Origin: Catellatospora sp. TT07R-123
GTDB lineage: Bacteria; Actinomycetota; Actinomycetes; Mycobacteriales; Micromonosporaceae
Direction of reading: 5' to 3'
NCBI RefSeq assembly: GCF_018327705.1
Contig: NZ_BNEM01000002.1
Coordinates: 1,364,001 to 1,428,000 of the forward strand
DNA length: 64,000 nt
Positions 1 to 14,817 of this stretch are shown one piece after another. The notes below the pieces were generated by a model. That model ran no database searches. It was not told the origin of the DNA and worked only from the letters and a program-made list of their open reading frames with translations. The translations under genes were made by a program, and so were the position numbers. Position 1 is the first letter of the stretch, and the number at the start of each line of letters is the position of its first letter.

Positions 1-259
1 CCAGGCCGACGAAGGTGTAGCCGCCGAAGCCGTCCACCTCGAACAGGGAGACGCCCAGCGCGAGCACCATCGGCAGGACGACGAAGACGAGCAGGCCGAG
101 CAGGTCCGGCGCGAGGAAGGCGTACGCCGCCAGGGCCTCCTTGCGCCTGCGGACACCGGCCGGGCCCGTGCTGATCCGCCCCCGAGGCGCCGAGGCCGGC
201 CGGGGCGGTCGCCCCGGCCGGCTCGTGCGGCCCGGTTGCGGTCGTTGTACGACTGTCAC
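1..259 (-). CDS. Sugar ABC transporter permease, MalF/UgpA type (partial, N-terminal part only)
   Basis: Only the first 86 codons are in the window; the gene runs off the left edge. A GTG start at 259 follows a GGAG-like ribosome site. The protein opens with a basic, Pro/Arg-rich cytoplasmic stretch of about 45 residues (ending RRKEALAAYAFLAPDLLGLL) and then the first membrane helix, as is usual for the first permease of a carbohydrate importer (binding-protein-dependent transport inner-membrane family). It lies 39 bp downstream of the sugar-binding lipoprotein gene on the same strand, so it is the next gene of the isomerase-kinase-binding protein operon. No ATPase gene is seen; actinomycete sugar importers often share one ATPase encoded elsewhere. 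Substrate inferred from neighbours: a pentose or arabinan oligosaccharide. Confidence 0.8.
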   Translation of the reverse strand, partial: MTVVQRPQPGRTSRPGRPPRPASAPRGRISTGPAGVRRRKEALAAYAFLAPDLLGLLVFVVLPMVLALGVSLFEVDGFGGYTFVGL

Positions 260-298
260 CGTGACTCCGCTTCTTTCAGTAGCGAGTTCGTGCCCAGG

Positions 299-1663
299 TC
301 AGAGGAGTGCGGCACCCTTGTACCCGGACAGGAAGGCGTCGATCTTCCCGGCGGCGTCCGCCGCGGCCTGAGCGGGGACCGCCCCGCCGAGCATGGCCGC
401 CTGGATCGCGTCGGAGATCGCCTTGTACACCTCGGGGGTGTACCGGGGCTCGGCGCGCCCACCGGGCACGACCTGCTCCATGAAGGTCTTCAGGGCCGGC
501 TTCTCGAACGCCCCGGCCTTGGTCGCCGCCTCCTTGACCGACTTGCGCGAGGGCATGTTGGTCTTGACGACGGTGTTCCACTGGCGCATCCGCTCGACGC
601 CCTCGGCGTCGGTGGAGCCCAGCGCCCAGGCGATGAACTTCGCCGCAGCCTGCGGGTTGCCACCCTTGGCGTTGGCGCAGAACGCCCAGCCGCCCATGTC
701 GGTGGTGTAGGTGCCACCGGTCGGGGTCGGCAGCGGGAAGACTCCGTACTTGAAGTCCTTGGCGTCGGTCTCCAGCTGCGAGACCGACCAGATGCCGGTC
801 TGCTGCATGGCGCAGAAGCCCGAGGCCAGGTTGGCCACGGCGTTGCCGCCGCCGTCGCCCTGGGTCTTCTTCGGGGCGATGCCGTTCTTCACCGCGTCGC
901 CCCACAGGCCCAGCGCCTTGTGCACGGCGTCGGTGTTGAAGCCGCTCCTGCCGTCGGGGCCGACCGCGGCCGCCCCGCCCTGCCACATGAACGGGTACCA
1001 GGTGAAGTTCTGGTAGTAGCCGGGCGCGGTCTCGAACAGCAGGCCGAACCGCTTGTCGTTGGTCAGCTTCCGGCCCACGTCGAGCAGCTGGTCCCAGGTC
1101 TTCGGGATGTCGCCCTCGGACAGGCCAGCCTTCTCGAAGGCGTCGACGCTGTAGTACATCGCCAGCGGCTCGATCTCCATCGGCAGGCCGAAGACCTTGC
1201 CGTCGACGGTACGGGTGTTGAGCACCCCGTCGACGAAGTCCTCCTTCGCGCCCGACCCCAGGTGCGGGGTGATGTCGGTCAGCACGCCGCCGTTGTAGTA
1301 GCGCAGGAAGTCACCGGGGCTGATGATGAAGATGTCCGGCCCGGCGCCGGAGGAGAACGCCGTCTGGAGCGCGGTGCCGCCGAGGTACTCCGAGACCGGC
1401 AGGTAGTGCAGCTTGATCTTGACGTCGTTGTTGGCGTTCCACTTCGCGGCGAGGTCCTCGAACCACTTGCTCTGGGCGTTGCCGTCCGGGTTCGGGCCGT
1501 AGAAGTTCCAGAACACCAGCTCCTTGGCGTCGCCGCTGCCCTTGTCGTCGTTGCCGCAGGCCGACAGCAGCGGCACCCCGGAGCCCAGCATCGTCGCACC
1601 GAGCAGACCCGCCCGCAGCAGGGACCGCCGGCTGAGCGCGCTCGGCTGGTTGTCGTATGCCAT
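299..1663 (-). CDS. Extracellular solute-binding lipoprotein, sugar ABC transporter (family 1)
   Basis: Binds a sugar outside the membrane and hands it to the permeases. The 454-residue protein starts at the ATG at 1663 behind AGGAGG. It has a twin-arginine-like SRRSLL (residues 11-16), a hydrophobic stretch and a lipobox LLSAC with the lipidated Cys36, so it is likely a lipoprotein. The body (LVFWNFYGPNPDG near residue 50, ISPGDFLRYYNGG, MGGWAFCANAKGGNPQAAAKF) is typical of family-1 maltose/multiple-sugar binding proteins. It follows the kinase gene by 108 bp and precedes a MalF-type permease by 39 bp. Because it is co-oriented with an arabinose-5-phosphate-isomerase-like gene and near two DUF4185 proteins, D-arabinose or a D-arabino-oligosaccharide is my inferred ligand; ribose-type or other sugars cannot be excluded. 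Confidence 0.85.
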   Translation of the reverse strand: MAYDNQPSALSRRSLLRAGLLGATMLGSGVPLLSACGNDDKGSGDAKELVFWNFYGPNPDGNAQSKWFEDLAAKWNANNDVKIKLHYLPVSEYLGGTALQTAFSSGAGPDIFIISPGDFLRYYNGGVLTDITPHLGSGAKEDFVDGVLNTRTVDGKVFGLPMEIEPLAMYYSVDAFEKAGLSEGDIPKTWDQLLDVGRKLTNDKRFGLLFETAPGYYQNFTWYPFMWQGGAAAVGPDGRSGFNTDAVHKALGLWGDAVKNGIAPKKTQGDGGGNAVANLASGFCAMQQTGIWSVSQLETDAKDFKYGVFPLPTPTGGTYTTDMGGWAFCANAKGGNPQAAAKFIAWALGSTDAEGVERMRQWNTVVKTNMPSRKSVKEAATKAGAFEKPALKTFMEQVVPGGRAEPRYTPEVYKAISDAIQAAMLGGAVPAQAAADAAGKIDAFLSGYKGAALL

Positions 1664-1771
1664 ATTCCTGTTCCTCCTGGATGAGGGGTGAGCCCGCGGC
1701 GGGGGAAGGGGACGGTACCTCGCCGCGAGTGTTCTTGGCTGTGCTGGTTCGCTCCGGAACTGAACGAGTGG

Positions 1772-2803
1772 TCAGGCACCACTCGCCGCGGTATCGGATG
1801 CGGACGCCACCGCGGCGGGCTGCCGCGATGACCAGGCGCCGCCCGGCCCGTGGAGCAGGGCGGTGATCTCGGACAGCCCCGGCATCGCCGGGGCCGAGCC
1901 GTGGCGGGTGACGGCCAGGGCGCCCGCCGCCGCGGCGAACTCGGCTGCCGCGAGCAGGCTGTCCCCCGCGGCCAGCCGTGCGGTCAGCGCGCCGCAGAAG
2001 GCGTCGCCGGCACCCACCGTGTCGACCACGTCGACGTCGTAGGCGTTGAGGGCGTTGATACGCCAGGCCGGACCGGGTTCGTCGCTGTCGCGGTCGACCA
2101 CGACCACTCCGCGACCGCCCAGGGTGACCACCGCGCCGGTGCCGGCGAAGTCGCGGCGCAGCTTCAGCGCGACGCCCAGTGCCGCGTCGCCGCGGCAGGA
2201 CAGGCCGGTGAGCTGCTCGGCCTCGACCTCGTTGGGCACGATCACGTCGACCAGCTCGGCGATCTCGCCGGGCAGGTCGGCGTAGGGCGCCGGGTTGAGC
2301 ACGGTGAACACCCCGGCCGAGCGGGCCAGCCGCAGCGCGGCCACGACCGCCTCGACGGGCAGCTCCAGCTGGACCAGCAGGATCCGGCTGCCGCGGATGA
2401 CCCCGGCGGCGGCCTCCACATCGGCGGCGGTGACGGCCTCGTTGGCACGGGGCACGATGATGATCGAGTTCGCGCCGGTCGGCTCGACGACGGGCAGGCC
2501 GACGCCGGTGCCCCGGTTCTCGTCGCGGTGCACCCGGCTGGCGTCGATGCCCTCCTGGGCGAGCAGGTGCAGGAACTCCTCGCCGTAGCGGTCGGCGCCG
2601 ACGCGCCCGACCATGGCGACGCGCGCTCCGGCGCGGGCCGCGGCCACGGCCTGGTTCAGCCCCTTGCCGCCGAGTGCCTCGTAGAAACCATGCCCGCGCA
2701 GGGTCTCGCCGGTCTCCGGTCGGCGCGGAGCCTGGGCGATCAGGTCCTTCATGAAGCTGCCGAGCACGCACACGTCGTACGCCCGGTCTTCGGCCGCGGT
2801 CAT
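1772..2803 (-). CDS. Ribokinase-family (PfkB) carbohydrate kinase
   Basis: Phosphorylates a sugar in the cytoplasm using ATP. The 343-residue protein has both PfkB signatures: the N-terminal GGKGLNQAVAAARAGA (about residues 45-60) and the C-terminal DTVGAGDAFCGAL (about 256-268) with the catalytic Asp in GAGD; GTGVGLPVVEPTGANSIIIV is the ribokinase-type ligand region. The ATG at 2803 overlaps the stop of the upstream isomerase gene (ATGA) and has AGGAG in front, so the two are translationally coupled. Sequence alone says ribokinase-like; paired with an arabinose-5-phosphate isomerase homologue, a D-arabinose 5-kinase role giving D-arabinose 5-phosphate is the most economical reading, but ribose remains possible. 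Confidence 0.85.
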   Translation of the reverse strand: MTAAEDRAYDVCVLGSFMKDLIAQAPRRPETGETLRGHGFYEALGGKGLNQAVAAARAGARVAMVGRVGADRYGEEFLHLLAQEGIDASRVHRDENRGTGVGLPVVEPTGANSIIIVPRANEAVTAADVEAAAGVIRGSRILLVQLELPVEAVVAALRLARSAGVFTVLNPAPYADLPGEIAELVDVIVPNEVEAEQLTGLSCRGDAALGVALKLRRDFAGTGAVVTLGGRGVVVVDRDSDEPGPAWRINALNAYDVDVVDTVGAGDAFCGALTARLAAGDSLLAAAEFAAAAGALAVTRHGSAPAMPGLSEITALLHGPGGAWSSRQPAAVASASDTAASGA

Positions 2804-3480
2804 CGGTTCTCCTCCGTGGGGCCGAGCAGCAGCCGGCCGAGCGTTCCGCCCGGGTGGAATCCGGCGAACTCCTCCGAGGTGAAGCCCCGGCGCACCATCA
2901 GCGCCGAGGCGAGCGCGTCGCCCATGGCCAGGGTGGCCGTGGTGGACGCGGTCGGGGCGACGTTGAGCGGGTCGGCCTCGCGGTCGACGGTGACGTCGAG
3001 GGTGAACCCGGCGATCGCGCCGAGGGTGGACTTGGGCCTGCCGGTCAGCGCGACCACCTGGCAGCCCCGTACGGCGACCATGCGGGCGAAGGCGCAGACC
3101 TCGGCGGTCTCGCCCGAGGCCGACAGCGCGATGAGCACGTCGGCGGGGGCGACCATGCCGGAGTCGCCGTGCAGCGCCTCGGCGGCGTGCACGAAGTGGG
3201 TGGGGGTGCCGGTGCTGGCCAGCGTGGCGGCGATCTTGCGTCCGATCAGGCCGGACTTGCCGAGACCGGACACGATCACGCGACCCTGGCAGGCCAGGAT
3301 CAGGTCCACGACCGCGCCGAACTCCTCGCCGAGCCGCTCGACCAGCGCGGAGATGGCCTCCGCCTCCCGGATGAGCGTCTCGCGGGCGGCGTCCAGGCCC
3401 GGGTCGTGCTGCCGCGGGGGCGGGATCTCCGCCGGTTCCGGCGCGTGCTGGCCATGTTCACCAGCGGAGTGCGTCGTCAC
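2800..3480 (-). CDS. SIS-domain sugar-phosphate isomerase, KpsF/GutQ/KdsD type without CBS domains
   Basis: Probable D-arabinose 5-phosphate/D-ribulose 5-phosphate isomerase. The 226-residue protein starts at a GTG (3480) behind GGAAGGA. After a 25-residue variable leader it shows the family hallmarks: GLGKSGLIGRKIAATLASTG (about 70-90), THFVHAAEALHGDSGM, the phosphate-binding SASGET (about 129-134), and FHPGGTLGRLLL at the end. The two C-terminal CBS domains of E. coli KdsD/GutQ are absent, giving a single-domain form. In Gram-negatives this activity feeds Kdo synthesis; an actinomycete makes no Kdo, so a catabolic role is likelier. It is the first gene of the operon, overlaps the kinase gene by 4 bp, and has a consensus promoter with an operator-like palindrome upstream. 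Confidence 0.85.
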   Translation of the reverse strand: MTTHSAGEHGQHAPEPAEIPPPRQHDPGLDAARETLIREAEAISALVERLGEEFGAVVDLILACQGRVIVSGLGKSGLIGRKIAATLASTGTPTHFVHAAEALHGDSGMVAPADVLIALSASGETAEVCAFARMVAVRGCQVVALTGRPKSTLGAIAGFTLDVTVDREADPLNVAPTASTTATLAMGDALASALMVRRGFTSEEFAGFHPGGTLGRLLLGPTEENR

Positions 3481-3503
3481 GATGGTCCTTCCGTCGTCGT
3501 GCG

Positions 3504-3557
3504 GCTGAGTTGCCCTGGAGCTGAGTTGCCCTGGAGCTGAGTTGCCCTGGAGCTGAG
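3504..3557. repeat. Three tandem copies of a 16-bp unit
   Basis: GCTGAGTTGCCCTGGA occurs three times head to tail (3504-3519, 3520-3535, 3536-3551) followed by a partial fourth unit. It lies between the isomerase start (3480) and its putative operator, so it falls in the 5' untranslated region of that operon. Function unknown; replication slippage is the simplest origin. Confidence 0.9.
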
Positions 3558-3602
3558 AAATCGATTTCCGGAAAGTTAGGCCTCTGAGGACCTCTCTGTC
3601 AA
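3557..3602 (-). promoter_or_regulatory. Promoter and LacI-type operator of the isomerase-kinase-transport operon
   Basis: Read on the minus strand, TTGACA (3602-3597) is followed after 18 bp by TAACTT (3578-3573), a good sigma-70-type promoter. Immediately downstream lies the perfect 12-bp palindrome GAAATCGATTTC (3557-3568), with the central CG typical of LacI-family operators. A repressor bound there would cover the transcription start. Near copies occur before the DUF4185-like gene and before the lacI-type gene. Confidence 0.7.
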
Positions 3603-3658
3603 TGGGACAGATCGGACTTCCGAGAAATCGAAATCACGCCGTGATCTGCGGAAACACG

Positions 3659-3707
3659 GCACGCCGGACAGGGCGGCCGCTGCTGCGGATCCGCCCTGCC
3701 GGCGTGC
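3659..3707 (-). terminator. Hairpin after the propeller/VCBS gene
   Basis: Arms GCACGCCGG(A)CAGGGCGG at 3659-3676 and the complementary 17 bases at 3691-3707 pair with one bulged base around a 14-nt loop. It lies about 60 bp past the stop of the minus-strand gene ending at 3770 and upstream of the isomerase promoter, as expected for a terminator. No clear T-run follows. Confidence 0.55.
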
Positions 3708-3769
3708 TGTACGTACGGTGCTGCCTTGCCACATCGGTCCGGTCGCGACCGGACCGACGGCGGTTCAGC

Positions 3770-6361
3770 TCAGAACGCGGTCTCCCCGGCCAGGCCGAAG
3801 AAGTCGTTCCACTTGGTCGCGGCGCCGAAGCCCGAGCCGGTGGACAGCGCCACCCACACGTCGGCGTCGCCGTCGCTGGAGAACGAGACGGCGTCGGCCT
3901 TCCCGTCGCCGTTGACGTCGCTCAGGTACGGGAACTGCCCCAGCGGCGCGAACGCGCTGTGCCACAGCTGCGCCGCCCCGAACGACGACCCGTTCGACAG
4001 CGCGACGTACACGTCGTCGCCGCCCTGCACGAACGCGACCGCGTCGGCCTTGCCGTCGCCGTTCACGTCGCCGACGCGGGGGGTCTGCCCACCCCAGGCG
4101 TAGGTGTCGTGCCACAGCACGCCCGGCCCGAACGAGGTGCCGTTCGACAGCGCCACGTACACGTCGCCGCTGGTGCCCTGGGTGAAGGTGACGATGTCGT
4201 CCTTGCCGTCGCCGTTGAAGTCGGCCACCGCCGGGAACTCGCCGGGCGGGGCGAAGAACTCGTGCCACTTGACCCCGGCGCCGAACGAGGAGCCGTTGGA
4301 CAGCGCGACGAACACGTCACCGTTGCCGTCCTGGACGAACGTCATGATGTCGTCCTTGCCGTCGCCGTTGAAGTCGCCGACCGCCGGGGTCTCGACCGCC
4401 GGGGCGAACCAGTCGTGCCACTTGGTGCTTGCACCCAGGCCGCCCCCGTTGGACAGGGCCACGTACACGTCGCCCAGGGTGCCCCGGGTGAACGTGACGA
4501 CGTCGTCCTTGCCGTCGCCGTTGAAGTCGCCGGTCAGCGGCGTCTCCCCCGGCAGCGAGAACATGTCGTGCCACTTCACCCCGCCGGCGAAGGAGCTGCC
4601 GGTGGAGGCGCCGACGTACAGGTCGGCCAGCGCGTTCTGGGTGAACACGACGGCGTCGTCCCTGCCGTCACCGGTCAGGTCGGTCGACGACCCGCCCAGC
4701 GGCATCCCGGCGTAGGTGCCGAAGTACACCTCCAGCTCGGCGATCGAGGTGAACGTCCGGGTCCCGCCCGGCGCTCCGATGATCCGTACGCCGTCGGCGT
4801 CGACCGGGTCGAAGCCCAGGGTGTACGTCTTGTACGGGCCCGCGGTGTTGTTGTACGGGTACAGCGGCGAGGTCTTCAGCCCGCGTACGTCGCTCCACAC
4901 GTGGTCACGGCGCACCTGCACCCGCAGGTCGGCACCGAACCAGCCGCCGTCGGCGAACGTCGCGCCGCTGGTGAAGACGACCTTGTTGATCGCGTACCGG
5001 CGCGGCCACGTGTAGCCCCACCAGCTCGCGCCCTTGCGCTCGTCGTTCCAGTCGTCCTCGCTGACGCCGCGGTTCCCGTCGTTGTAGAAACCGTAGTTGC
5101 CGTAGTGCGCGACCCGCTCGACCGGCACCGTGCCGGGCTCGCGGGCCAGGTTGCGCGCCGGGTCGTAGGCGTTGGCCGCGCCGGTCGCCGTGTACGGCAC
5201 CAGCGACATCGGCCGCAGCGAGTACGTGTAGACCGCCGTCCCGCCGCCGCCGCACGGGCAGACGTTGGACTGGAGCCACACCGACCGGCCGTCGGCGCTG
5301 ATGTACTTCGACGGGATCGTGGTGGCGTAGCCGCCGTGCTTGGACGTGGTCCACGGATAGCCGCCGAAGTCCTTGGTCGCGAACGGTTTCCACGGCCCCC
5401 AGGGCGTGGGCGACTCGTAGAACTCGAACGTGTACTCGGTCCACGACGTGTAGAGGTAGCGGTTGAGCGGCTTGTCGTAGACCACGCCGCCCTGGCTGAT
5501 CACGCTGAGGTTGCGCGCCTTGCCCGCCGTGTACACGTCGGGGTAGATGCGCCGGTCGTCGTGCAGCACCGCGACGCGGCGGCTGATGTCGGAGTTCCAC
5601 TGCGGCGCGCCGCCGGCGTCGAAGCCGGAGACGAACTGCCAGGCCGACCGGGTCTGCACCGACGCGCGGGGCACCCGGGCCAGGTAGACGTCGACCGGGT
5701 CGGGCACCCGGTCGGCGAACGAGTCGCGCCAGTTGCCGTCCAGGCCGTAGGCGTACACGTAGCCGTCGACGGCGTTGGCGTAGTTCTTGCCGTAGTCCAG
5801 GAACATGATCGTGGTGAACACGCCGTTGCCGAACATCGGCGCCGACCGGTTCCAGGACCAGGTGCGGCCGTGGTCGGTCGAGCGGGCGACGGTCGCCGCG
5901 GGCGCGTCGTCGAAGTCCAGCGCCAGGTCCTGCACGGCCAGGTAGAGCGAGCCGTCGGCGCAGGCCATGCCGGTGGGCTTGCGGGTGTGGTTGGCGGTCC
6001 AGACCTGCCCGACCTGGTCGCCCATGGCCAGCGTGGTGCCGGCCAGGGAGCCGGGCATGCCGGTGATCCGGTTCACGCCGATGTCGGAGAAGTTCGGGCC
6101 GAAGCCCTTGCCGTCGCCGTGGGCGGCGTAGACGTTGTCGTCGTCGGACCAGCAGTTCGCCCACAGGTCGCCGTCGCCGTTGGCCTGGGTGGTGGCATGG
6201 CTGGCGATGCTGGTGGTGGCGAAGAACGTGCTGGCCGGCGGGGTGTAGGCGACGGGCCGCAGCAGCGGCGCCGGGGTGGCGGAGAAGGAGGCGGCCGCGA
6301 CGCTCGCGGCCACCAGGGCGACCGTGAGCACGGTCGGCAGGAGCTGGGGTTTCAGTCGCAT
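3770..6361 (-). CDS. Secreted beta-propeller glycosidase-like protein (probably DUF4185) with six VCBS repeats
   Basis: An 863-residue exported protein with signal peptide (about residues 1-30) and an ATG at 6361 behind GGGAGGG. Residues about 40-400 resemble DUF4185 five-bladed propellers: DGDLWANCWSDDDNVYAAHG (63-82), PTGMACADGSLYLAVQD, STDHGRTWSWN, DKPLNRYLYTSWTEYTFEFY. DUF4185 includes the GH183 endo-D-arabinofuranases, so a D-arabinan-cleaving role is plausible; the match is weaker than for the protein encoded at 11506. Residues about 415-555 look like a discoidin/F5-8C-type carbohydrate-binding domain (INKVVFTSGATFADGGWFGA, YKTYTLGFDPVDADGVRIIG, FTSIAELEVYF). The C-terminal 300 residues carry six roughly 50-residue DxNGDGxxD repeats like those of the three plus-strand enzymes. 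Its promoter shares the LacI-type operator, linking it to the sugar-uptake operon. A sialidase-like function is the alternative. Confidence 0.75.
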   Translation of the reverse strand: MRLKPQLLPTVLTVALVAASVAAASFSATPAPLLRPVAYTPPASTFFATTSIASHATTQANGDGDLWANCWSDDDNVYAAHGDGKGFGPNFSDIGVNRITGMPGSLAGTTLAMGDQVGQVWTANHTRKPTGMACADGSLYLAVQDLALDFDDAPAATVARSTDHGRTWSWNRSAPMFGNGVFTTIMFLDYGKNYANAVDGYVYAYGLDGNWRDSFADRVPDPVDVYLARVPRASVQTRSAWQFVSGFDAGGAPQWNSDISRRVAVLHDDRRIYPDVYTAGKARNLSVISQGGVVYDKPLNRYLYTSWTEYTFEFYESPTPWGPWKPFATKDFGGYPWTTSKHGGYATTIPSKYISADGRSVWLQSNVCPCGGGGTAVYTYSLRPMSLVPYTATGAANAYDPARNLAREPGTVPVERVAHYGNYGFYNDGNRGVSEDDWNDERKGASWWGYTWPRRYAINKVVFTSGATFADGGWFGADLRVQVRRDHVWSDVRGLKTSPLYPYNNTAGPYKTYTLGFDPVDADGVRIIGAPGGTRTFTSIAELEVYFGTYAGMPLGGSSTDLTGDGRDDAVVFTQNALADLYVGASTGSSFAGGVKWHDMFSLPGETPLTGDFNGDGKDDVVTFTRGTLGDVYVALSNGGGLGASTKWHDWFAPAVETPAVGDFNGDGKDDIMTFVQDGNGDVFVALSNGSSFGAGVKWHEFFAPPGEFPAVADFNGDGKDDIVTFTQGTSGDVYVALSNGTSFGPGVLWHDTYAWGGQTPRVGDVNGDGKADAVAFVQGGDDVYVALSNGSSFGAAQLWHSAFAPLGQFPYLSDVNGDGKADAVSFSSDGDADVWVALSTGSGFGAATKWNDFFGLAGETAF

Positions 6362-6437
6362 CGCACCCTCCCGGGGACGGTTGTTCGGCGTCCGGAGGCG
6401 AAGATCTGCTCAGGACGGTTCAGGAAACGCGGTATGA

Positions 6438-6486
6438 GCAATCGATTTCTTGTCGGGAACGTACATCGACCAAATATCATCGTCAA
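6438..6486 (-). promoter_or_regulatory. Promoter and LacI-type operator of the propeller gene
   Basis: On the minus strand TTGACG (6486-6481), 17-bp spacer, TACGTT (6463-6458), then the palindrome-like site GCAATCGATTTC (6438-6449; one mismatch to GAAATCGATTTC) beginning 8 bp past the -10. Same layout as at the isomerase operon. Confidence 0.65.
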
Positions 6487-6524
6487 GACACCGCTTCAGC
6501 GCGGTGGAAATCTTCGCAAACCTG

Positions 6525-6536
6525 GGAATCGATTTC
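6525..6536 (+). promoter_or_regulatory. LacI-type operator upstream of the regulator gene
   Basis: GGAATCGATTTC differs by one base from the perfect palindrome at 3557. It lies about 100 bp before the regulator's ATG, close to a weak -10-like TAGGCT (6543-6548), which suggests autoregulation. Confidence 0.6.
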
Positions 6537-6633
6537 TCCTGCTAGGCTGCGCACAGCCCGACAGCCGTAGCGACACCGTCACCGAGGATGATGTCGACCG
6601 GTGCAGGGCGTCCGCGGCCGAGAGCGAGGAACG

Positions 6634-7715: not shown

Positions 7716-7760
7716 TTGACGGCGCTTCTGAGCGGTTGATAATTTCGCGAGCACGAAATT
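7716..7760 (+). promoter_or_regulatory. Promoter of the cell-wall-hydrolase operon with overlapping inverted repeat
   Basis: TTGACG (7716-7721), 16-bp spacer, GATAAT (7738-7743) is a near-consensus promoter. The -10 runs into an inverted repeat, AATTTCGCGAGCACGAAATT (7741-7760; 7-bp arms, 6-bp spacer), well placed for a repressor. The motif differs from the GAAATCGATTTC sites, so another regulator may be involved. A further inverted repeat GGTGAT-CCA-ATCACC lies at 7680-7694. The leader to the start codon is about 155 nt. Confidence 0.6.
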
Positions 7761-7904
7761 CACCGCCATCCATCACGCGCCGCACCGAACGCGTCGGTAT
7801 GCGCGCACGGCACATCCCGTATCACCTGGTCACAGGCCGTTCTGAGCGGACGGTCAGCCGAACCTGCCCGCACCGTGGCGGGCTTCCCCCAACCAGGAGC
7901 GGCC

Positions 7905-9344
7905 ATGCGACGAAAGCTCGCGATCCTCCTCACCCCCCTACTGATCGCCCCCATCCTCGCAGCGATCGGCCTCGCCTCCCCGGCGTCGGCCGCCTGCACC
8001 TCCATCCCGGCCACCGCCGACCCGTCGGTGCTGGTGATCGTCTACCGCGTCGGCAAGGTCAACAACGTCAACGACAAGGTCATGCTCTCGGGCTTCGAGA
8101 CCGGCTGGGTCGAGTCGCACATGAACAACCTGCCGTGCGGCGACAAGACCTCGCTGGGCGTGTTCCAGCAGCGCTACGACTACGGCTGGGGCACCCCCGA
8201 GCAGATCATGGACCCGGTCTACTCGGCCACGCAGTACTTCGTCCGCGCCATCGTGTGCGACCGGGACCACCCGGGCCACACCACCGGGCAGGTCGCCCAG
8301 TGCGTGCAGCGCTCGGGCTTCCCCGACCGCTACGACCAGGTCCAGGGCACCGCCGGCGGCCTGCTGGCCACGGCCCGCCGGGCCGCCGAGATCCACGCTG
8401 GCTCGCCCACGGACTTCAACGGCGACGGCAAGGACGACATCGTCACGTTCAACCAGGGCACGCTGGCCGACGTGTACGTCTCCACCTCGACGGGCACCGG
8501 TTTCACCGGGACCTCGGTGAAGTGGAACGACTTCTTCTCGGTCGGCGGCGAGACCCCGCTCACCGGTGACTTCAACGGCGACGGCAAGGACGACGTCGTC
8601 ACGTTCACGCACGGCAGCGGCACCGCCGGAGACGTGTACGTCGGCCTTTCCAACGGCGCCGGCTTCCTCGGCGGCGCCAAGTGGAACGACTGGTTCGCCC
8701 CCGGCGCCGAGATCCCCGCCGTCGGCGACGTCAACGGCGACGGCAAGGACGACATCGTCACCTTCACCCACGACGCCCGCGGCGACGTGTACGTGAGCCT
8801 GTCCACCGGCAGCAGCTTCACCGCCGGGGCCAAGTGGCACGAGTTCTTCGCCCCCGCCGGGGAGTACCCGGCCGTGGCCGACGTCAACGGCGACGGCAAG
8901 GCCGACCTGATCACCTTCACCCAGGGCCCGGCCAGCGCCGCCGACGTGTACGTGGCGCTGTCCAACGGCTCGTCCTTCGGCGCGGGCGTGAAGTGGCACG
9001 ACCTGTTCGCGGTCGGCAGCGAGCTGCCGCGCGTGGGCGACGTCAACGGCGACGGCAAGGCCGACATCGTCACCTTCACCTGCGACGCCAACGCCGACGT
9101 CTACGCCGCCGTCTCCAACGGCAGCGCCTTCGTGGGCACCACCGCCAAGTGGAACGACTTCTTCTGCGTCGCGGGCGAGTTCCCGTACCTGGCCGACGTC
9201 AACGGCGACGGCAAGGACGACGCCGTGGTCTTCACCAAGGGCGGCACCAACGACGTCTACGTCGGACTGTCCACCGGCACCGGGTTCCTCGGCGGCGCCA
9301 AGTGGCACGACTTCTTCGGCCTCAACGGCGAGACCACGCTGTGA
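7905..9344 (+). CDS. Secreted lysozyme-like (transglycosylase-fold) protein with six VCBS repeats
   Basis: A 479-residue exported protein; the ATG at 7905 (AGGAG in front) opens a clear signal peptide cleaved near ASAA (28-31). Residues about 35-165 look like a lysozyme/SLT-type fold: FETGWVESHMNN (64-75) with the probable catalytic Glu65, SLGVFQQR (83-90), GWGTPEQIMDPVYSATQYFV. It should cut peptidoglycan glycan strands, though activity is inferred. From residue 168 there are six roughly 50-residue VCBS/FG-GAP repeats with calcium-loop DxNGDGxxD motifs, ending KWHDFFGLNGETTL; repeat 5 carries a Cys pair. It is first in an operon with an amidase and a DUF4185 enzyme that share the same tail. 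Confidence 0.8.
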   Translation: MRRKLAILLTPLLIAPILAAIGLASPASAACTSIPATADPSVLVIVYRVGKVNNVNDKVMLSGFETGWVESHMNNLPCGDKTSLGVFQQRYDYGWGTPEQIMDPVYSATQYFVRAIVCDRDHPGHTTGQVAQCVQRSGFPDRYDQVQGTAGGLLATARRAAEIHAGSPTDFNGDGKDDIVTFNQGTLADVYVSTSTGTGFTGTSVKWNDFFSVGGETPLTGDFNGDGKDDVVTFTHGSGTAGDVYVGLSNGAGFLGGAKWNDWFAPGAEIPAVGDVNGDGKDDIVTFTHDARGDVYVSLSTGSSFTAGAKWHEFFAPAGEYPAVADVNGDGKADLITFTQGPASAADVYVALSNGSSFGAGVKWHDLFAVGSELPRVGDVNGDGKADIVTFTCDANADVYAAVSNGSAFVGTTAKWNDFFCVAGEFPYLADVNGDGKDDAVVFTKGGTNDVYVGLSTGTGFLGGAKWHDFFGLNGETTL

Positions 9345-9391
9345 ACCGCTCCACCCGATCCGCGACCACCCCTCGCGTACTGGAGGAATCC

Positions 9392-11509
9392 GTGACACCC
9401 CTGCCCTTCCGGCGGGCCCGCGCAGCGTCGCTGCTCGGTGCCGCCCTCGCCGGCGCGCTGCTGCTGTCCGCGGCACCCGCCGTCGCCAAGCCGGCCCCGG
9501 CCACCGGGCTCGGCGCCGTGTTCACCGCGGCCGCCACGTCCTACGGCGTGCCCCGGGACGTGCTCGTCGCCGTCGGCTACGGCGAGACCCGCCTGATCGA
9601 CCACGACGGGCTGCCCAGCCAGGACAACGGCTTCGGCATCATGCACCTGGCCACCAACCCGTACAACCACAGCCTGGAGCTGGCCTCGCAGCTCACCGGG
9701 CTGGACCAGGCCGTGCTGAAGAGCGACGCCAGGGCCAACGTCAAGGGCGCGGCCGCGGTGCTGCGCTCGTACGCGGACAGGGCGGGCCTGACCGCCGCCG
9801 ACCGGGCCCGCACCGGCGCCTGGTTCCCGGCCGTGGCCGCCTACGCGGGCGCCACGAACGACGCCACCGCCAAGCTGTACGCCGACTACGTCTACCAGCT
9901 CGTACAGAAGGGCATGAGCGCGCAGACCGTCGGCGGCACCGTCACCACGGCGCCGAACAAGGTCCGCCCGGAGCAGGGCCGCTACGCCGCGATCGCGATG
10001 GCGGGCGAGCAGTCGACCGCCCGCCCGCAGAGCGCCGCCAGGAGCGCCCCGCAGGGCGCGGCGGCGCTGGCCGCGGCCGTCCCGCAGTACCCGGCGGCGC
10101 ACTGGATCGCCGCCAACGGCAACAACTACGCCGCCGGCCGCTCCGCGGCGATCACCACGGTCGTCATCCACGTGATGCAGGGGTCGTACAGCAGCTCGAT
10201 CAACTGGTTCCAGAACCCGTCGGCGCAGGTCAGCGCACATTACCTGGTGCGCTCCAGCGACGGCGACATCACCCAGATGGTGCGCGAGGAGGACACCGCC
10301 TACCACGTGCGGTCCGCCAACTCGTACGCCGTCGGCATCGAGCACGAGGGCTTCATCGACAACCCGTCGTGGTTCACCGACGCCATGTACCGCTCGTCGG
10401 CGAACCTGACCCGCTACCTCTGCGAGAAGTGGGGGCTGCCGAAGTCCCGTACCAATATCAAGGGCCACAACGAGATGCCGGGCAACGACCACACCGACCC
10501 GGGCCCGAACTGGAACTGGAACTACTACATGTCGCTGGTCACCGCCGGTGGCAGCGGCGTGACGCCGGGCGGCTCGCCGACCGACTTCAACGGTGACGGC
10601 AAGGACGACATCGTCACGTTCAACCTGGGCAACCTCAACGACGTCTACGTGGCGACCTCGACCGGAGCCGCCTTCGCGGGCACCTCGGTGAAGTGGAACG
10701 ACTTCTTCGGCCTCAACGGCGAGAAGCTGCTCACCGGCGACTTCAACGGCGACGGCAAGGACGACGTCGTCACGTTCACCGGCGGCACCCTCGGCGACGT
10801 CTACGTCGGCCTGTCCACCGGCACCGGGTTCCTGGGCGGCGCCAAGTGGCACGACTGGTTCTCGCCGGGGGCCGAGATCCCGGCGGTCGGCGACGTGAAC
10901 GGCGACGGCAAGGACGACATCATCACGTTCACCCACGACGCCCAGGGCGACGTGTTCGTGGCCCTGTCGAACGGCAGCTCGTTCGGCGCGGGCGTCAAGT
11001 GGCACGAGTTCTTCGCCCCCGCCGGGGAGTTCCCCGCCGTGGCCGACGCCAACGGCGACGGCAAGGCCGACATCATCACGTTCACGCAGGGCCCGGCGAC
11101 CGCGGCCGACGTGTACGTGGCGCTGTCCACCGGCTCGTCGTTCGGCGCGGGCGTCAAGTGGCACGACCTGTTCGCCGTCGGGGCGGAGAAGCCCCGCGTC
11201 GGCGACTTCAACGGCGACGGCAAGGCCGACATCGCCACCTTCACCTGCAACGCCGACGCCGACGTGTACGTGGCCCTGTCCAACGGCAGCAGCTTCGTCG
11301 GCACCACGGTGAAGTGGAACGACTTCTTCTGCATCGCCGGGGAGTTCCCGTACGTGGGCGACTACAACGGCGACGGCAAGGACGACATCGTCGTCTTCAC
11401 GAAGGGGTCGACCAACGACGTGTTCGTGGGCCTGTCCACCGGCACCGGGTTCCTCGGCGGCGCGAAGTGGCACGACTTCTTCGGCCTGAACGGGGAGACC
11501 ACGCTGTGA
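9392..11509 (+). CDS. Secreted bifunctional lysozyme-like / N-acetylmuramoyl-L-alanine amidase with VCBS repeats
   Basis: A 705-residue exported enzyme with GTG start at 9392 behind GGAGG, 47 bp after the previous gene. After the signal peptide, residues about 38-180 form a lysozyme-like domain (VGYGETR with probable catalytic Glu65; DNGFGIMHLATNP). Residues about 240-385 are an Amidase_2/PGRP domain: TTVVIHVMQG with a zinc-ligand His near 259, SAHYLVRSSDGDITQMV, YAVGIEHEGF, and GHNEMPGNDHTDPGPNWNW with the second His and Asp ligand region. It should therefore cleave both glycan and the MurNAc-L-Ala bond. Six VCBS repeats (400-705) follow, nearly identical to those of its neighbours. Its stop overlaps the next start (GTGA). 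Confidence 0.88.
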   Translation: MTPLPFRRARAASLLGAALAGALLLSAAPAVAKPAPATGLGAVFTAAATSYGVPRDVLVAVGYGETRLIDHDGLPSQDNGFGIMHLATNPYNHSLELASQLTGLDQAVLKSDARANVKGAAAVLRSYADRAGLTAADRARTGAWFPAVAAYAGATNDATAKLYADYVYQLVQKGMSAQTVGGTVTTAPNKVRPEQGRYAAIAMAGEQSTARPQSAARSAPQGAAALAAAVPQYPAAHWIAANGNNYAAGRSAAITTVVIHVMQGSYSSSINWFQNPSAQVSAHYLVRSSDGDITQMVREEDTAYHVRSANSYAVGIEHEGFIDNPSWFTDAMYRSSANLTRYLCEKWGLPKSRTNIKGHNEMPGNDHTDPGPNWNWNYYMSLVTAGGSGVTPGGSPTDFNGDGKDDIVTFNLGNLNDVYVATSTGAAFAGTSVKWNDFFGLNGEKLLTGDFNGDGKDDVVTFTGGTLGDVYVGLSTGTGFLGGAKWHDWFSPGAEIPAVGDVNGDGKDDIITFTHDAQGDVFVALSNGSSFGAGVKWHEFFAPAGEFPAVADANGDGKADIITFTQGPATAADVYVALSTGSSFGAGVKWHDLFAVGAEKPRVGDFNGDGKADIATFTCNADADVYVALSNGSSFVGTTVKWNDFFCIAGEFPYVGDYNGDGKDDIVVFTKGSTNDVFVGLSTGTGFLGGAKWHDFFGLNGETTL

Positions 11510-13572
11510 GAACGACCCGGCTCCCGATCGCCGCGACCATCGCGGCGCTCGTACTGGCCGGGCTGGGCGGGGCGGCTTCGGCCGCCCCGTCCGGGGTTTC
11601 CGGCCCGAGCCCGGCCGCGCTGACGGTCACCGGCCCGGCCGAGAAGGTCGCCAAGCTCACCGGCCCCGGCTCGATCAACGCCACCGACACCAGGTGGCAG
11701 CTCAAGGCCACCGACCTGGGCATCATGTGGGACAACGGCAACGGCCAGGTGCTCACCGTCTTCGGCGACACGTTCGGCAACGGCTGGACCGGCCCCGGCG
11801 GTGGCGTCGGCAACGGCGCCACCATCGACTGGCGCTGCAACACGCTGGTCCGCAGCGCCGACCGCAACCTCGCCGACGGCATGACCTTCGACAGCGCGGT
11901 GCTGGACCGGGCCGGGCACGCCGGCACGATCCTGCCCTGCAAGCAGATCGACAACAACGAGATGACAGTCATCCCGACCGCTGCGATCTCGGTGGGCAGC
12001 CGACAGTTCATCCACTACATGTCGGTCAACCACTGGGGCGACGCGGGCCGCTGGTACACCAACTACAGCGGCATCGCGTACTCCGACGACAACGGGCAGA
12101 CCTGGATCAAGGACGCCGACGCCCGCTGGCAGAACACCCCCGCCTGGGACAACCGGTTCCAGCTGGGCGCCATGCTGCGCCAGGGCGGCTTCGTCTACCT
12201 GTACGGCACCATGAACGGCCGCTTCGGCAACACCTGGCTGGCCCGGGTGCCCGAGGGCTCGGTCCTGGAGCCGACGGCCTACCGGTACTGGAACGGTTCG
12301 GCCTGGGTCACCGACCAGTGGGCCACCGTCCCCGTCGCCACCGGGCCGGTCGGCGAGCTGTCGGTGATCTACAGCCGCTACCTCGGCCGGTTCGTGATGA
12401 CGTACCTCAACGAGAGCCGGGGGGCGCTGGTGCTGCGTACGGCGCCGACGCCGACCGGCCCGTGGAGCGCCGAGGAGGTGCTGGCCACCACGGCCCAGTA
12501 CCCGGGGCTGTACGGGGCGTTCATCCATCCCTGGTCGGCCGACTCCGACAGCCCGTACCTGTATTTCACGATGGCGCAGTGGGATCCGTACAACGTGTGG
12601 CTGATGCGGACGAAGCTCACCGGCGGCGGCATGTTCGCCCGCTCGTCGACCGACTTCACCGGCGACCACCGCTCCGACGTCATCACGTTCACCCAGAACG
12701 ACCTCGGTGACGTGTACGTCGCCCCGTCCACCGGCGGCGCGTTCGCCGGGGGCGGCAAGTGGCACGACTGGTTCGCCCCGTTCAACGAGACCGCGCTGAC
12801 CGGCGACTTTAACGGCGACGGCCGCGACGACATCGCGACCTTCACCCACGCCCCGCTCAACGACGTCTACGTGGCCCTGTCCACCGGCTCCGGCTTCGGC
12901 GCCGGGGCGAAATGGCACGACTGGTTCGCGGGCGGCAACGAGATCCCGGCGGTCGGCGACGTGAACGGCGACGGCAGGGACGACATCGTCACCTTCACCC
13001 ACGACGGCGAGGGCGACGTGTACGTGGCCCTGTCCAACGGCACCTCGTTCGTGGGCACCGCGGCCAAGTGGCACGAGTTCTTCGCCCCGTGGGGCGAGTT
13101 CCCGGCCCTCGGCGACGTCAACGGCGACGGCAGGGACGACCTGATCACGTTCACCCAGGGGTCGACCGACGACGTCTTCGTGGCCCTGTCCACCGGGACC
13201 TCGTTCGGCGCGGGCCAGAAGTGGCACGACTTCTTCGGCCTGACCGGCGAGTCCCCGCGCGTCGGCGACGTCAACGGCGACGGCCGGGACGACATCGTGG
13301 TCTTCACCTGCGACACCAACGCCGACGTCTTCGTGGCCCTGTCCACCGGCACCGGCTTCACCGGCACCACGGCCAGGTGGAACGACTTCTTCTGCACCGC
13401 CGGAGAGTTCCCGTACCTGGCCGACGCCAACGGCGACGGCAAGGACGACATCCTGGTGTTCACCCAGGCCGCCACCAACGACGTCTACGTCGGCCTGTCC
13501 AACGGCACCTCGTTCGCCGCAGGCGTGAAATGGAACGATTTCTTCGGCCTGACCGGCGAGCGCGAGTTCTGA
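11506..13572 (+). CDS. Secreted DUF4185 (GH183-type, putative endo-D-arabinofuranase) with VCBS repeats
   Basis: A 688-residue exported protein, GTG start at 11506 overlapping the amidase stop by 4 bp. A signal peptide (1-26) is followed by a DUF4185 domain (about 50-365) with family hallmarks: ATDLGIMWDNGNGQVLTVFG (68-87), GDTFG, DNRFQLGAMLRQGGFVYLYG, VGELSVIYSRYLGRFVMTYL, PTGPWSAEEVL, YGAFIHPWSADSDSPYLYFT. DUF4185 enzymes were characterised as GH183 endo-D-arabinofuranases acting on mycobacterial arabinogalactan and lipoarabinomannan; I recall this from the literature. Six VCBS repeats (375-688) end the protein; several have R for K in the calcium loop (DVNGDGRDD). Co-translation with peptidoglycan hydrolases fits degradation of a mycobacterial-type wall. 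Not every DUF4185 member need share the activity. Confidence 0.82.
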   Translation: MRTTRLPIAATIAALVLAGLGGAASAAPSGVSGPSPAALTVTGPAEKVAKLTGPGSINATDTRWQLKATDLGIMWDNGNGQVLTVFGDTFGNGWTGPGGGVGNGATIDWRCNTLVRSADRNLADGMTFDSAVLDRAGHAGTILPCKQIDNNEMTVIPTAAISVGSRQFIHYMSVNHWGDAGRWYTNYSGIAYSDDNGQTWIKDADARWQNTPAWDNRFQLGAMLRQGGFVYLYGTMNGRFGNTWLARVPEGSVLEPTAYRYWNGSAWVTDQWATVPVATGPVGELSVIYSRYLGRFVMTYLNESRGALVLRTAPTPTGPWSAEEVLATTAQYPGLYGAFIHPWSADSDSPYLYFTMAQWDPYNVWLMRTKLTGGGMFARSSTDFTGDHRSDVITFTQNDLGDVYVAPSTGGAFAGGGKWHDWFAPFNETALTGDFNGDGRDDIATFTHAPLNDVYVALSTGSGFGAGAKWHDWFAGGNEIPAVGDVNGDGRDDIVTFTHDGEGDVYVALSNGTSFVGTAAKWHEFFAPWGEFPALGDVNGDGRDDLITFTQGSTDDVFVALSTGTSFGAGQKWHDFFGLTGESPRVGDVNGDGRDDIVVFTCDTNADVFVALSTGTGFTGTTARWNDFFCTAGEFPYLADANGDGKDDILVFTQAATNDVYVGLSNGTSFAAGVKWNDFFGLTGEREF

Positions 13573-13616
13573 CACCCCGCCGACGCGAAGACCAGCCGAC
13601 GTGAAGACCAGCCAAC

Positions 13617-13669
13617 TTGCCGGGCAATCGGGCGCCTGCGGCACCCGCATTCGCCCGATTGCCCGGCAA
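13617..13669. repeat. Family A inverted repeat, copy 1 (likely terminator)
   Basis: Perfect 18-bp arms TTGCCGGGCAATCGGGCG (13617-13634) and complement (13652-13669) around a 17-nt loop, 45 bp after the hydrolase operon. Further copies at 50221 and 58040. The rest of the 237-bp gap before the kinase gene shows nothing else clear. Confidence 0.85.
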
Positions 13670-13809
13670 CTCAGACGGCCCTGGCCCGGGGCTCGCGGAC
13701 GGAAGACGCGAGCCTGCTGACCGGTGGTCGAGGACCGCAGGCCGGCGACGAGGCCCGCCTGCGGCATCATGCATTCGGCGGCGGTACGACCAGAGTTGAG
13801 GAGCCAGCC

Positions 13810-14817
13810 ATGGACACGGTCGTGGTCGGGGTCGACGGCGGCGGCACCCGCACCAGGTGCGTGGTGGTCGACGGGGACGGCCGGGTGCTGGGCCGGGCCG
13901 AGGCCGGCGGTGCCAACCCGCACAGCTCCCCCGATCCGGTCGGCGCCCTCACCGACGCGGTCCGCACCGCCGTGGCCCAGGCCGCCGGGACCACGCCCGG
14001 AGTCGCCGCGCGGGTGGCGACCGGGGTGTTCGGGCTGGCCGGAGCCGGTGGCGCCGGGCACGCCGACGCGCTGCGGCGGGCCGCCGCCGCCTGGCACGCG
14101 GCCGGGCTGGCCGGGACCCCGGAGGTGGTCGGCGACCTGGTGGTCAACTTCGCCGCCGGTACGCCCGAACCCGAAGGGCTGGTCCTGGTCGCCGGCACCG
14201 GCGCGATCGCCGGGCGCATCGCCGACGGCGCGGTCGTACGCCGCTGCGACGGGTACGGCTGGCTGGTCGGCGACCGCGGCTCGGGCACCTGGCTGGGCCG
14301 GATGGCGGTCACCGCCGCGCTGGACGCCCTCGACGGCCGCGGCCCGGACACGGTCCTCACGCACACCGTCCCCGCCGCGTTGCTGGACGGCCCCTTCCCG
14401 GCCGCTTTCGAGCCGGGCGGCGCCGACGCCCACGCCCTCGCCCAGCGGCTGATCCGGGCCGTCTACGGCGCCCCACCCGCGACCCTGGCCAGGCTGAGCC
14501 CGGTCGTCGACGCCGCCGCCCGCGCCGGTGACGCCACCGCCCGCCTGATCGCCGCCGAAGCCGCCGACCATCTCGTCGCCTCGGTGGAGGCCCTGGCACC
14601 CCAGCCCGCTGAACCGCTCGTCTTCGCCGGGGGCATCCTGACCGGCCCCACCCTGGTCGCCGAGCTGGTCACGGCCCGGTTCGCCGGATCGCACCCGCCC
14701 CGAGCGGTATCAACGGCCGGGCCCGGCGAGCTCGGCGCCGCGCTGCTCGCGCTACGCCGCACCGGCCTGCCCGCACCCGACCTCACCCGCGTCCACACCG
14801 CCCTGCTCCCGGCGTGA
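13810..14817 (+). CDS. BadF/BadG/BcrA-type amino-sugar kinase (GlcNAc and/or MurNAc kinase, MurK-like)
   Basis: A 335-residue cytoplasmic kinase of the ASKHA fold. Visible motifs: phosphate-1 loop VGVDGGGTRTRCVVV (residues 5-19), GVFGLAGAGGAGH, phosphate-2 region VLVAGTGAIAGRI (about 133-145), and GYGWLVGDRGSGTWLGRMAV, which in this family marks N-acetylglucosamine kinases. The ATG at 13810 follows GAGGAG. Some family members (MurK of Clostridium acetobutylicum) phosphorylate both GlcNAc and MurNAc at C6. Since a MurNAc-6-phosphate etherase (MurQ) is encoded 12 kb away and peptidoglycan hydrolases directly upstream, this is the best candidate for the missing kinase step of muropeptide salvage. 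Substrate is inferred. Confidence 0.85.
   Translation: MDTVVVGVDGGGTRTRCVVVDGDGRVLGRAEAGGANPHSSPDPVGALTDAVRTAVAQAAGTTPGVAARVATGVFGLAGAGGAGHADALRRAAAAWHAAGLAGTPEVVGDLVVNFAAGTPEPEGLVLVAGTGAIAGRIADGAVVRRCDGYGWLVGDRGSGTWLGRMAVTAALDALDGRGPDTVLTHTVPAALLDGPFPAAFEPGGADAHALAQRLIRAVYGAPPATLARLSPVVDAAARAGDATARLIAAEAADHLVASVEALAPQPAEPLVFAGGILTGPTLVAELVTARFAGSHPPRAVSTAGPGELGAALLALRRTGLPAPDLTRVHTALLPA

Follow-up and report, generated by a model that had tools for sequence, protein, structure and literature searches.

The locus and its genes

The window examined here is a stretch of 64,000 bp from the 9.17 Mb genome of Catellatospora sp. TT07R-123, a member of the family Micromonosporaceae (G000:C2:1364001-1428000). 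Its first part carries a predicted locus for the utilisation of D-arabinan, in which an isomerase of the KdsD type and a ribokinase-like kinase are the putative enzymes of D-arabinose catabolism. Genes were called with our own codon-usage script, which skipped genes in some of the stretches used (mostly G017 and L081), and were named by Pfam and NCBIfam. Base 1 of the window corresponds to L002:12001. The following genes are central to the argument:

2800-3480, minus strand: KdsD/KpsF-type SIS isomerase without CBS domain, predicted D-arabinose-5-phosphate isomerase; the gene overlaps the kinase gene by 4 bases
1772-2803, minus strand: ribokinase-like PfkB kinase, predicted D-arabinose 5-kinase (PfkB 200.6 bits)
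11506-13572, plus strand: predicted endo-D-arabinanase of glycoside hydrolase family 183 (GH183) with FG-GAP repeats (matches to PF13810 and EndoMA1)
3770-6361, minus strand: divergent GH183 relative with C-terminal FG-GAP repeats, putatively secreted (N-terminus judged by eye)
6634-7638, plus strand: LacI-family regulator (LacI and Peripla_BP matches)

From 6361 downwards, the minus strand encodes the GH183 relative, the isomerase, the kinase, a sugar-binding protein, two permeases, a GH172 protein without FG-GAP repeats and a HAD hydrolase. The order on the plus strand is LacI regulator, lysozyme-like protein, amidase, GH183 protein and NagK-like kinase. The locus extends upstream past the window edge, where the two permeases, the GH172 protein without FG-GAP repeats, the HAD hydrolase and a second, FG-GAP-tailed GH172 protein are found. 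A first-pass annotation had placed its genes within 1-14817, and gene calling, Pfam and NCBIfam confirmed these placements. Its reading of the locus gains strength from genes that lay beyond its view, namely the upstream permeases, the GH172 pair and the HAD hydrolase.

Protein 11506-13572 matches PF13810 (DUF4185) with 385.3 bits in the longer frame (cut-off 39.5) and with 388.9 bits in the genome search. Comparison to the solved EndoMA1 of Microbacterium arabinogalactanolyticum resulted in an E value of 2.9e-101. Residues D33, D51 and E243 are described as essential in EndoMA1 (PMC10509167; this and the other papers are cited for individual passages). Equivalents of all three are present in protein 11506-13572, and their columns are invariant in 15 of 15 aligned GH183 proteins. 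The EndoMA1 contact residues R198, W138, L292 and Y293 are also retained, while P141 is not; all positions were counted by hand along the EndoMA1 alignment. Judged by these similarities, the assignment of the protein to GH183 is sound.

The product of 3770-6361 yielded no Pfam match to DUF4185 at E ≤ 0.5. It had earlier been called DUF4185-like, which turned out to be right: orthologues exceed the PF13810 cut-off (40.3 bits in G051, 53.3 bits in a Kribbella), and the hhalign comparison of the family with GH183 gave 99.2% (E 1.1e-19), in columns (query 120-692) that omit the N-terminal Asp pair and include a part resembling a carbohydrate-binding module that is absent from the 3770 protein. The equivalent of D51 is present in all 24 rows of the alignment. 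An Asp is located 18 residues before it, which equals the D33-D51 spacing, but MAFFT places a gap there. The mean predicted local distance difference test score of an AlphaFold2 model built with 12 close sequences was only 37.6, and it rose to 63.5 after GH183 rows had been added. In a Foldseek search with the second model, the EndoMA1 entries 8ic1 (E 1.2e-15) and 8hhv (E 3.3e-15) came out on top and AraH2 of M. tuberculosis (8an0) was found at rank 37, with template-modelling scores against EndoMA1 of only 0.41-0.45. The model leans to the GH183 fold, a result that is not independent, as GH183 rows were part of its alignment.

The best structure match of the isomerase is 2xhz (E 2.6e-44), and its SIS domain is 51% identical to E. 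coli KdsD over 196 residues. Residues K59, E111, E152 and H193 of KdsD, which we take to be the catalytic ones, are kept. For comparison, loci with a KdsD-type isomerase and a ribokinase-like kinase were termed type A, those with a FucI-like isomerase and an FGGY kinase type B. The 25 type-A loci comprise seven from a sample of 200 family genomes (the window's own among them), two named records that repeat two of those, and 16 from Kribbella. Usable isomerase rows were obtained from 21 of the 25 (without L081, L085, L087 and L093; 19 of the 21 are distinct), and the four residues are the same in all 21. The score for TIGR00393 (202.0 bits) is below the cut-off of 203.7 and no CBS domain match was found in the isomerase, so the protein is described here as a KdsD-type SIS isomerase by its sequence and is not filed as KpsF or GutQ. 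No second close homologue was found in the genome, where the runner-up scores 34.8 bits compared to 477 for the isomerase itself. A model of the synthase for 3-deoxy-D-manno-octulosonate (Kdo) 8-phosphate found no match in the window's genome but matches control genomes, in agreement with the earlier proposal that Kdo synthesis is not the reason for this isomerase. An isomerase homologue in a different context (G105) is 41% identical and keeps only two of the four catalytic residues. There, a KdsD-like SIS protein adjoins an FGGY kinase and a transaldolase-like gene, the latter named by reading the sequence (L055/L056, 17331-20186), a set that is predicted to be some other sugar pathway.

The kinase is 40% identical to E. 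coli RbsK and retains the RbsK catalytic residues. Its scores for the NCBIfam ribokinase models are below the cut-offs (TIGR02152, 280.8 vs 299.65; NF008353, 251.6 vs 341), which fits a changed substrate. Seventeen RbsK positions were tabulated, partly chosen from recall, position 98 having been included before PMC9604405 was read. Kinase rows were usable for 21 of the 25 type-A loci (without L081, L087, L091 and L094; again, 19 are distinct), and 14 ribokinases from plasmid records served as controls. All 21 linked kinases have Gly at position 98, where E. coli RbsK and all 14 controls have Ala. Pro at position 100 is likewise common to all 21, and Lys15, Gly98 and Pro100 are each invariant among the linked kinases and were not seen in any control. 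Met14 was dropped as a specificity mark since it is present in 3 of the 14 controls. In E. coli ribokinase, Ala98, Ile100 and Ile110 form a lid that faces the 2'-OH of D-arabinose; the A98G exchange raised kcat for D-arabinose 15-fold and lowered KM 1.5-fold, and I100V gave no benefit (PMC9604405). Among five aligned solved ribokinases, four have Ala98 and 8cqx has Gly98. The latter is probably an engineered mutant, as it otherwise resembles 6znx in the alignment.

Distribution in relatives and the common operator

At E ≤ 1e-30, the isomerase query finds 8 of the 200 family genomes. Seven carry the isomerase at 72-100% identity, and in each of these a PF13810 match lies within 10 kb and the kinase gene adjoins. 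Conservation of the gene set in relatives had been set beforehand as a test; isomerase, kinase and DUF4185 gene were found together in these 7 of 200 genomes, and the block of isomerase, kinase and regulator genes recurs in Kribbella. Two of the genomes (G016 and G051) fall in the window's genus, and the isomerase of the window is 93% identical to the one in the record of Catellatospora sp. KI3 and 86% identical to the one in that of C. bangladeshensis.

Eight GH183 loci of the family are of type B (G042, G125, G109, G118, G100, G001, G018 and G122), with a FucI-like isomerase, an FGGY kinase and GH116; five of them also have a D-arabinitol-dehydrogenase-like gene. Domain searches for type B were done on G042, where the FucI-like protein gave a weak Pfam match (Fucose_iso_C, 27.7 bits, cut-off 29.3). 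A FucI-like isomerase is present in 27 of the 200 genomes and in none of the seven with the KdsD-type isomerase. Of 19 genomes with a best GH183 match of at least 298 bits, seven are type A, eleven have the FucI-like isomerase, none has both and one (G071) has neither. The chance figure for this exclusion is 1.6e-4, calculated at a threshold picked after inspection of the table and ignoring both that choice and the relatedness of the genomes. Both locus types occur inside the window's genus. In G039 and G080 the type-A pair occurs together with GH183-, GH172- and GH116-type genes, so that mainly the sugar-burning step differs there. G071, also of the window's genus, carries a decayed locus with GH183, GH172 and amidase genes in pieces (L073, 9321-17663), in which no isomerase, FucI-like gene or operator was found.

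The LacI homologue of type-B loci is 47-50% identical to that of the window, and the inverted repeat GAAATCGATTTC is found in the promoter regions of both locus types. The following copies are present in the window:

3557-3568: operator GAAATCGATTTC, exact, 76 bases upstream of the isomerase gene; the sole exact copy in the genome
3624-3635: weaker operator-like site, two mismatches
6438-6449: operator copy, one mismatch, 76 bases upstream of the gene starting at 6361
6525-6536: operator copy, one mismatch, 98 bases upstream of the lacI-type gene

Type-A loci have the operator before the isomerase, LacI and 3770-type genes, type-B loci before the FGGY gene, GH172 and GH183. With at most one mismatch, 63 copies were counted in 22 family stretches (630 kb), compared to 0.12 expected by base composition, and all 63 lie outside called genes; stretches G105, G071 and G118b yielded no copy. 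The window has four copies at up to two mismatches (0.26 expected). The operator was derived from the same loci in which it was counted, so the independent checks are a scan of the whole genome and the GH183 loci of Kribbella. Besides the exact copy, the scan found nine places with one mismatch, and none with a reversed control pattern. The LacI protein is inferred to bind GAAATCGATTTC.

Sixteen Kribbella loci were found via the isomerase. In all of them the kinase and LacI genes adjoin; within the stretches examined, importer genes are present in 13 and a 3770-type gene in 11. Every one of the 16 genomes has a PF13810 match at some place, and in 14 of them it reaches 268 bits or more. The seven genomes showing both have their top GH183 gene and the 3770-type gene on different contigs. 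The operator is present in 16 of 16 isomerase loci (two copies each) and in 10 of 10 examined GH183 loci (one copy), where it is located about 31-94 bases before the GH183 gene in the five loci read in detail. Because the operator stands beside GH183 elsewhere in the Kribbella genomes, the isomerase and kinase genes are tied to GH183 independently of neighbourhood. In three of these five loci a similar gene directly follows that of GH183 (L134:8261-9382, L136:8368-9519 and L138:11100-12242); the first scores 28.7 bits for BNR_2, below the cut-off of 31.4. In one Kribbella, a GH92 gene adjoins the block of isomerase, kinase and LacI genes (L080:12708-15653), and its product might act on the mannose parts of lipoarabinomannan.

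A second operator cluster in the window's genome (C2:2728013-2730633) flanks M23 and amidase genes with FG-GAP tails (L129:7469-11577, equal to G000:C2:2726468-2730576; operator copies at L129:9014, 9189 and 11623). The N-terminal part of its Amidase_2 and FG-GAP protein is 80% identical to the amidase of the window, and the cluster is probably a distant part of the regulon. Four one-mismatch copies are without clear link (C1:1927356, C1:4300652, C1:4359124 and C2:3312503), compared to about 1.7 expected by base composition. Genes for a GH16-like protein and a GH64 beta-1,3-glucanase (L130:7547-9371) lie behind a one-mismatch copy at L130:9504, which may be there by chance.

A scan for loci by exact peptide patterns, which is no census, gave 32 loci. 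In 14 matches (from L095 on), mostly from Gram-negative groups, the isomerase identity is 45-53%, and no other gene of the locus was found nearby (tblastn, E ≤ 1e-6, coverage > 0.3; some stretches are short). These 14 are probably ordinary KdsD proteins.

Accessory genes, predicted pathway and alternatives

The remaining genes of the locus are:

299-1663, minus strand: substrate-binding protein of a sugar ATP-binding cassette (ABC) importer (SBP_bac_1 136.2 bits, SBP_bac_8 113.2 bits)
1-259, minus strand: 5' part of permease 1; open reading frame from 259 to about -730, the gene caller favouring a start at 70
L002:11270-12259, minus strand: permease 1, whole (BPD_transp_1)
L002:2104-5364, outside the window, beyond the transposase gene: FG-GAP-tailed GH172
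9392-11509, plus strand: Amidase_2 with FG-GAP repeats (Amidase_2 108.9 bits; AmpD E 6e-9)
7905-9344, plus strand: tentative lysozyme-like domain with FG-GAP repeats (8b2h, 24.6 bits, E 2.4e-4)
13810-14817, plus strand: BadF/NagK-like sugar kinase (BcrAD_BadFG 99.9 bits; NagK NF046058 90.7 bits, cut-off 370)

PF11175 (cut-off 27) is matched by the two upstream GH172 genes, at 283.2 and 212.3 bits. A transposase gene at L002:5534-6937 (about -6466 to -5063 in window numbering), which encodes rve and HTH_38 domains and is presumably IS30-like, separates the end of the operon from the gene of the FG-GAP-tailed GH172 protein. The amidase of the first-pass annotation was recovered at 9392-11509. 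Of the two lysozyme-like domains it had named, the one at 7905 is retained through the single weak match to 8b2h, and the one at 9392 is not, as no significant domain match besides amidase and FG-GAP was found in that protein (Glucosaminidase, E 0.044). Homologues of 7905-9344 also occur in G016, G051, G039 and G080 and in the type-B loci G001 and G122. The BadF/NagK-like kinase gene adjoins the locus in one relative (G016), a loose linkage, and its product possibly serves peptidoglycan amino sugars. A PF00756 esterase is kept in eight D-arabinan loci of both types (G080 at 29909-30901, G039, G001, G125, G118, G109, G100 and G122a), its domain having been checked in five; in G080, an exact operator is located 30 bases before the gene. 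Among solved structures the esterase matches ferulic acid esterases best, with corynebacterial Cmt1 as one of the weaker matches, and the enzyme could strip acyl groups, perhaps mycolates, from arabinan.

Based on gene content and context, it is highly probable that this is a LacI-controlled D-arabinan utilisation locus with phosphorylate-first catabolism of D-arabinose, targeting the arabinogalactan or lipoarabinomannan of mycolic-acid actinobacteria. The FG-GAP-tailed GH183 protein, the GH183 relative, the upstream GH172, the amidase and the lysozyme-like protein, whose export was assessed by eye from the N-termini, would breach the wall and cleave D-arabinan. D-arabinose or short oligosaccharides would enter through the ABC importer, and the GH172 protein without FG-GAP repeats, probably intracellular, would trim the oligosaccharides. 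Kinase 1772-2803 is predicted to convert D-arabinose to D-arabinose 5-phosphate and isomerase 2800-3480 to convert this to D-ribulose 5-phosphate, which would enter the pentose phosphate pathway; the pair would replace the FucI-like isomerase and FGGY kinase of the sister loci. Both the substrate and this route had been proposed by the first-pass annotation, and sequence and context support them. The amidase, the lysozyme-like protein and the second operator cluster suggest that peptidoglycan is attacked too, and such a set of wall-attacking genes fits scavenging as well as predation. A wider proposal appears moderately likely to us. It holds that a dedicated D-arabinose 5-kinase, naturally Ala98Gly and the first candidate gene for EC 2.7.1.54 (which we take to be D-arabinokinase), together with a CBS-less KdsD recruited to catabolism, forms a phosphorylate-first route that replaces the isomerise-first one inside one conserved LacI regulon. 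The same regulon would drive a wall-lysis kit (amidase, M23 and lysozyme-like proteins) for opening and eating mycobacterium-type walls.

Several observations weigh against this interpretation. The linked kinases form one clade (support 100/100), and Gly98 may be a single event, i.e. one inherited state and not repeated evidence. The A98G mutant of E. coli ribokinase still strongly prefers ribose (KM 310 mM for D-arabinose vs 0.28 mM; PMC9604405), so Gly98 by itself is not expected to turn a ribokinase into a D-arabinose kinase. In the KdsD reaction, D-arabinose 5-phosphate predominates at equilibrium, with a Keq of D-ribulose 5-phosphate to D-arabinose 5-phosphate of 0.48-0.5 (PMC11591822), and the catabolic direction would therefore need a pull. 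In an alignment of about 20-28% identity, all nine 3770-type rows have Gln opposite the essential E243 and Trp opposite R198. As aligned, the 3770 protein does not carry the full set of essential GH183 residues (D33, D51 and E243); it is not filed here under GH183 and may be active on another D-arabinan linkage or inactive. PF04685 (GH116), the published exo-beta-D-arabinofuranosidase family, was not found anywhere in the window's genome; GH116-type genes are present in the sister type-A loci G039, G080 and G017. The GH172 protein without FG-GAP repeats is closest to alpha-FFase1, an alpha-fructofuranosidase (272.6 bits, compared to 103.8 for ExoMA1). Within the stretches examined, the Kribbella isomerase loci have GH172 in 1 of 16 and canonical GH183 in 0 of 16. 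The evidence from mutual exclusion is also weak when not conditioned on GH183, since 0 of 7 compared to 27 of 200 is unremarkable, and 16 of the 27 genomes with a FucI-like isomerase lack a GH183 of 298 bits. The FucI-like isomerase is therefore not specific to D-arabinan, and the contrast is telling only within GH183 genomes. A FucI-like protein was found in none of the 16 Kribbella, a weak result in a sample of isomerase-bearing Kribbella only.

The kinase and isomerase might serve ribose, ribulose or another pentose, the D-arabinan neighbourhood being incidental. The best matches of the kinase are indeed ribokinases, and a KpsF-like isomerase occurs, dispensable, in the D-ribulose locus of Citrobacter rodentium (PMC12307932). 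However, D-arabinan-type genes accompany the pair in Micromonosporaceae, as does the GH183 relative in most Kribbella loci, the operator of the pair also stands at GH183 genes elsewhere in Kribbella genomes, the Gly98 lid change is absent from all control ribokinases and the pair was never found together with the FucI-like isomerase in the genomes examined, which makes this explanation unlikely. We regard an anabolic isomerase, which would make D-arabinose 5-phosphate as a precursor of a surface sugar in the manner of Kdo synthesis, as highly improbable. Such a role is known for KdsD-type enzymes and would suit the equilibrium (PMC11591822), but the search for Kdo-8-phosphate synthase gave no match, the isomerase gene is lined up with importer and kinase genes for which a biosynthetic route would have no use, and it is under an operator common to degradative genes. 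It is very unlikely that alpha-fructofuranan or another furanoside is the substrate, with GH172 acting as an alpha-fructofuranosidase as its closest match would have it. Fructose would need no KdsD-type isomerase, and the third-best match of this GH172 (8ah3, 235.1 bits, named DG02479), which we presume to be DgGH172c, belongs to enzymes described as exo-alpha-D-arabinofuranosidases. GH183 enzymes assayed elsewhere were active on D-arabinan and not on D-galactan (PMC10115798).

Two further explanations concern the wall itself. The adjacent amidase, lysozyme-like protein and NagK-like kinase, together with the M23 and amidase genes flanked by the second operator cluster, would suit peptidoglycan salvage, in which the SIS protein and the kinases handle amino sugars and DUF4185 is secondary. 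Against this, the best matches of the SIS protein are D-arabinose-5-phosphate isomerases and sister loci have a FucI-like isomerase and an FGGY kinase in place of the pair, so that salvage is given hardly any weight. Whole-cell arabinose is reported for Micromonosporaceae, and the locus might recycle an arabinose-containing polymer of the cell's own wall. Mycobacteria have GH183 enzymes for which an own-wall role has been suggested (PMC10115798). Models for the Emb and AftA arabinosyltransferases, both of which match C. glutamicum, found nothing in the window's genome. As neither these nor Kdo-8-phosphate synthase were found, a foreign polymer is likelier than self-turnover. The locus is moreover patchy (isomerase in 8 of 200 genomes), has two forms in one genus and is fragmented in G071, a pattern that suits an optional nutrient route better than a housekeeping function. 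Self-turnover is accordingly rated as improbable, if less so than the other explanations.

Comparison with known systems

The first-pass annotation knew of no described locus with this combination of genes. That claim does not stand, as D-arabinan loci with GH183, GH172, an ABC importer, an isomerase and a kinase were published in 2023 (PMC10509167; see also PMC10115798). The locus of Microbacterium arabinogalactanolyticum contains four GH183 genes, GH172, GH116, an ABC importer, and a putative isomerase and kinase; it is called typical for Gram-positive bacteria and is induced by D-arabinose and by mycobacterial wall extract (PMC10509167). The window locus is like it in GH183, GH172, an ABC importer with an SBP_bac_8 protein, kinase and isomerase. 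It differs in its one canonical GH183, the absence of PF04685 from the genome, the FG-GAP-tailed enzymes, the peptidoglycan hydrolases and the kinase-first pair. By gene content it has GH183, GH172, importer, isomerase and kinase and misses GH116, and is read as a variant and not the published form. The types of the published isomerase and kinase are unnamed in the passages of PMC10509167 used here, and the contrast was made against the type-B loci of the window's family. PUL42 of Dysgonomonas gadei, a Bacteroidota system, likewise combines GH183 and GH172 with sugar catabolism, and a predicted fucose isomerase was the most abundant carbohydrate-active enzyme during growth on D-arabinan (PMC10115798), which suggests an isomerise-first route there.

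Compared to KdsD, GutQ and KpsF, the window isomerase shares the SIS domain, the 51% identity to KdsD and the four catalytic residues, but it has no CBS domain, Kdo-8-phosphate synthase was not found in its genome, and importer and kinase genes adjoin. Like the Rbl D-ribulose locus of Citrobacter rodentium, the window has a KpsF-like isomerase in a catabolic pentose locus; in Rbl, catabolism relies on an FGGY D-ribulokinase, the isomerase being dispensable (PMC12307932). The linked kinases resemble the RbsK A98G mutant in fold, catalytic residues and Gly98 (PMC9604405). Unlike that mutant, they are natural, additionally carry Pro100 and Lys15 and form a separate clade.

Within the actinobacteria, the same two reactions were reportedly described by Volk, as D-arabinokinase and phosphoarabinoisomerase of Propionibacterium pentosaceum. 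A survey in 2007 listed 2.7.1.54 among validated orphans, without a gene (PMC1940265), and the window locus offers a candidate kinase gene. The linked kinases may also be ready-made D-arabinose kinases of the kind engineered for nucleoside analogues (PMC9604405). The operator allows further parts of wall-degrading regulons to be found, e.g. acyl-removing or galactan enzymes.

Taken together, the kind of locus has been published, and what is new is the predicted phosphorylate-first pathway, together with the exchange between it and the isomerise-first pathway within a single regulon; such a phosphorylate-first route inside a D-arabinan locus was not found in the open-licence literature. It would constitute a complete second catabolic route for D-arabinose, the signature sugar of mycobacterial walls. 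Given that species of a single genus carry one or the other version, with related regulators and an identical operator, it would represent a clean natural replacement of one pathway by another.

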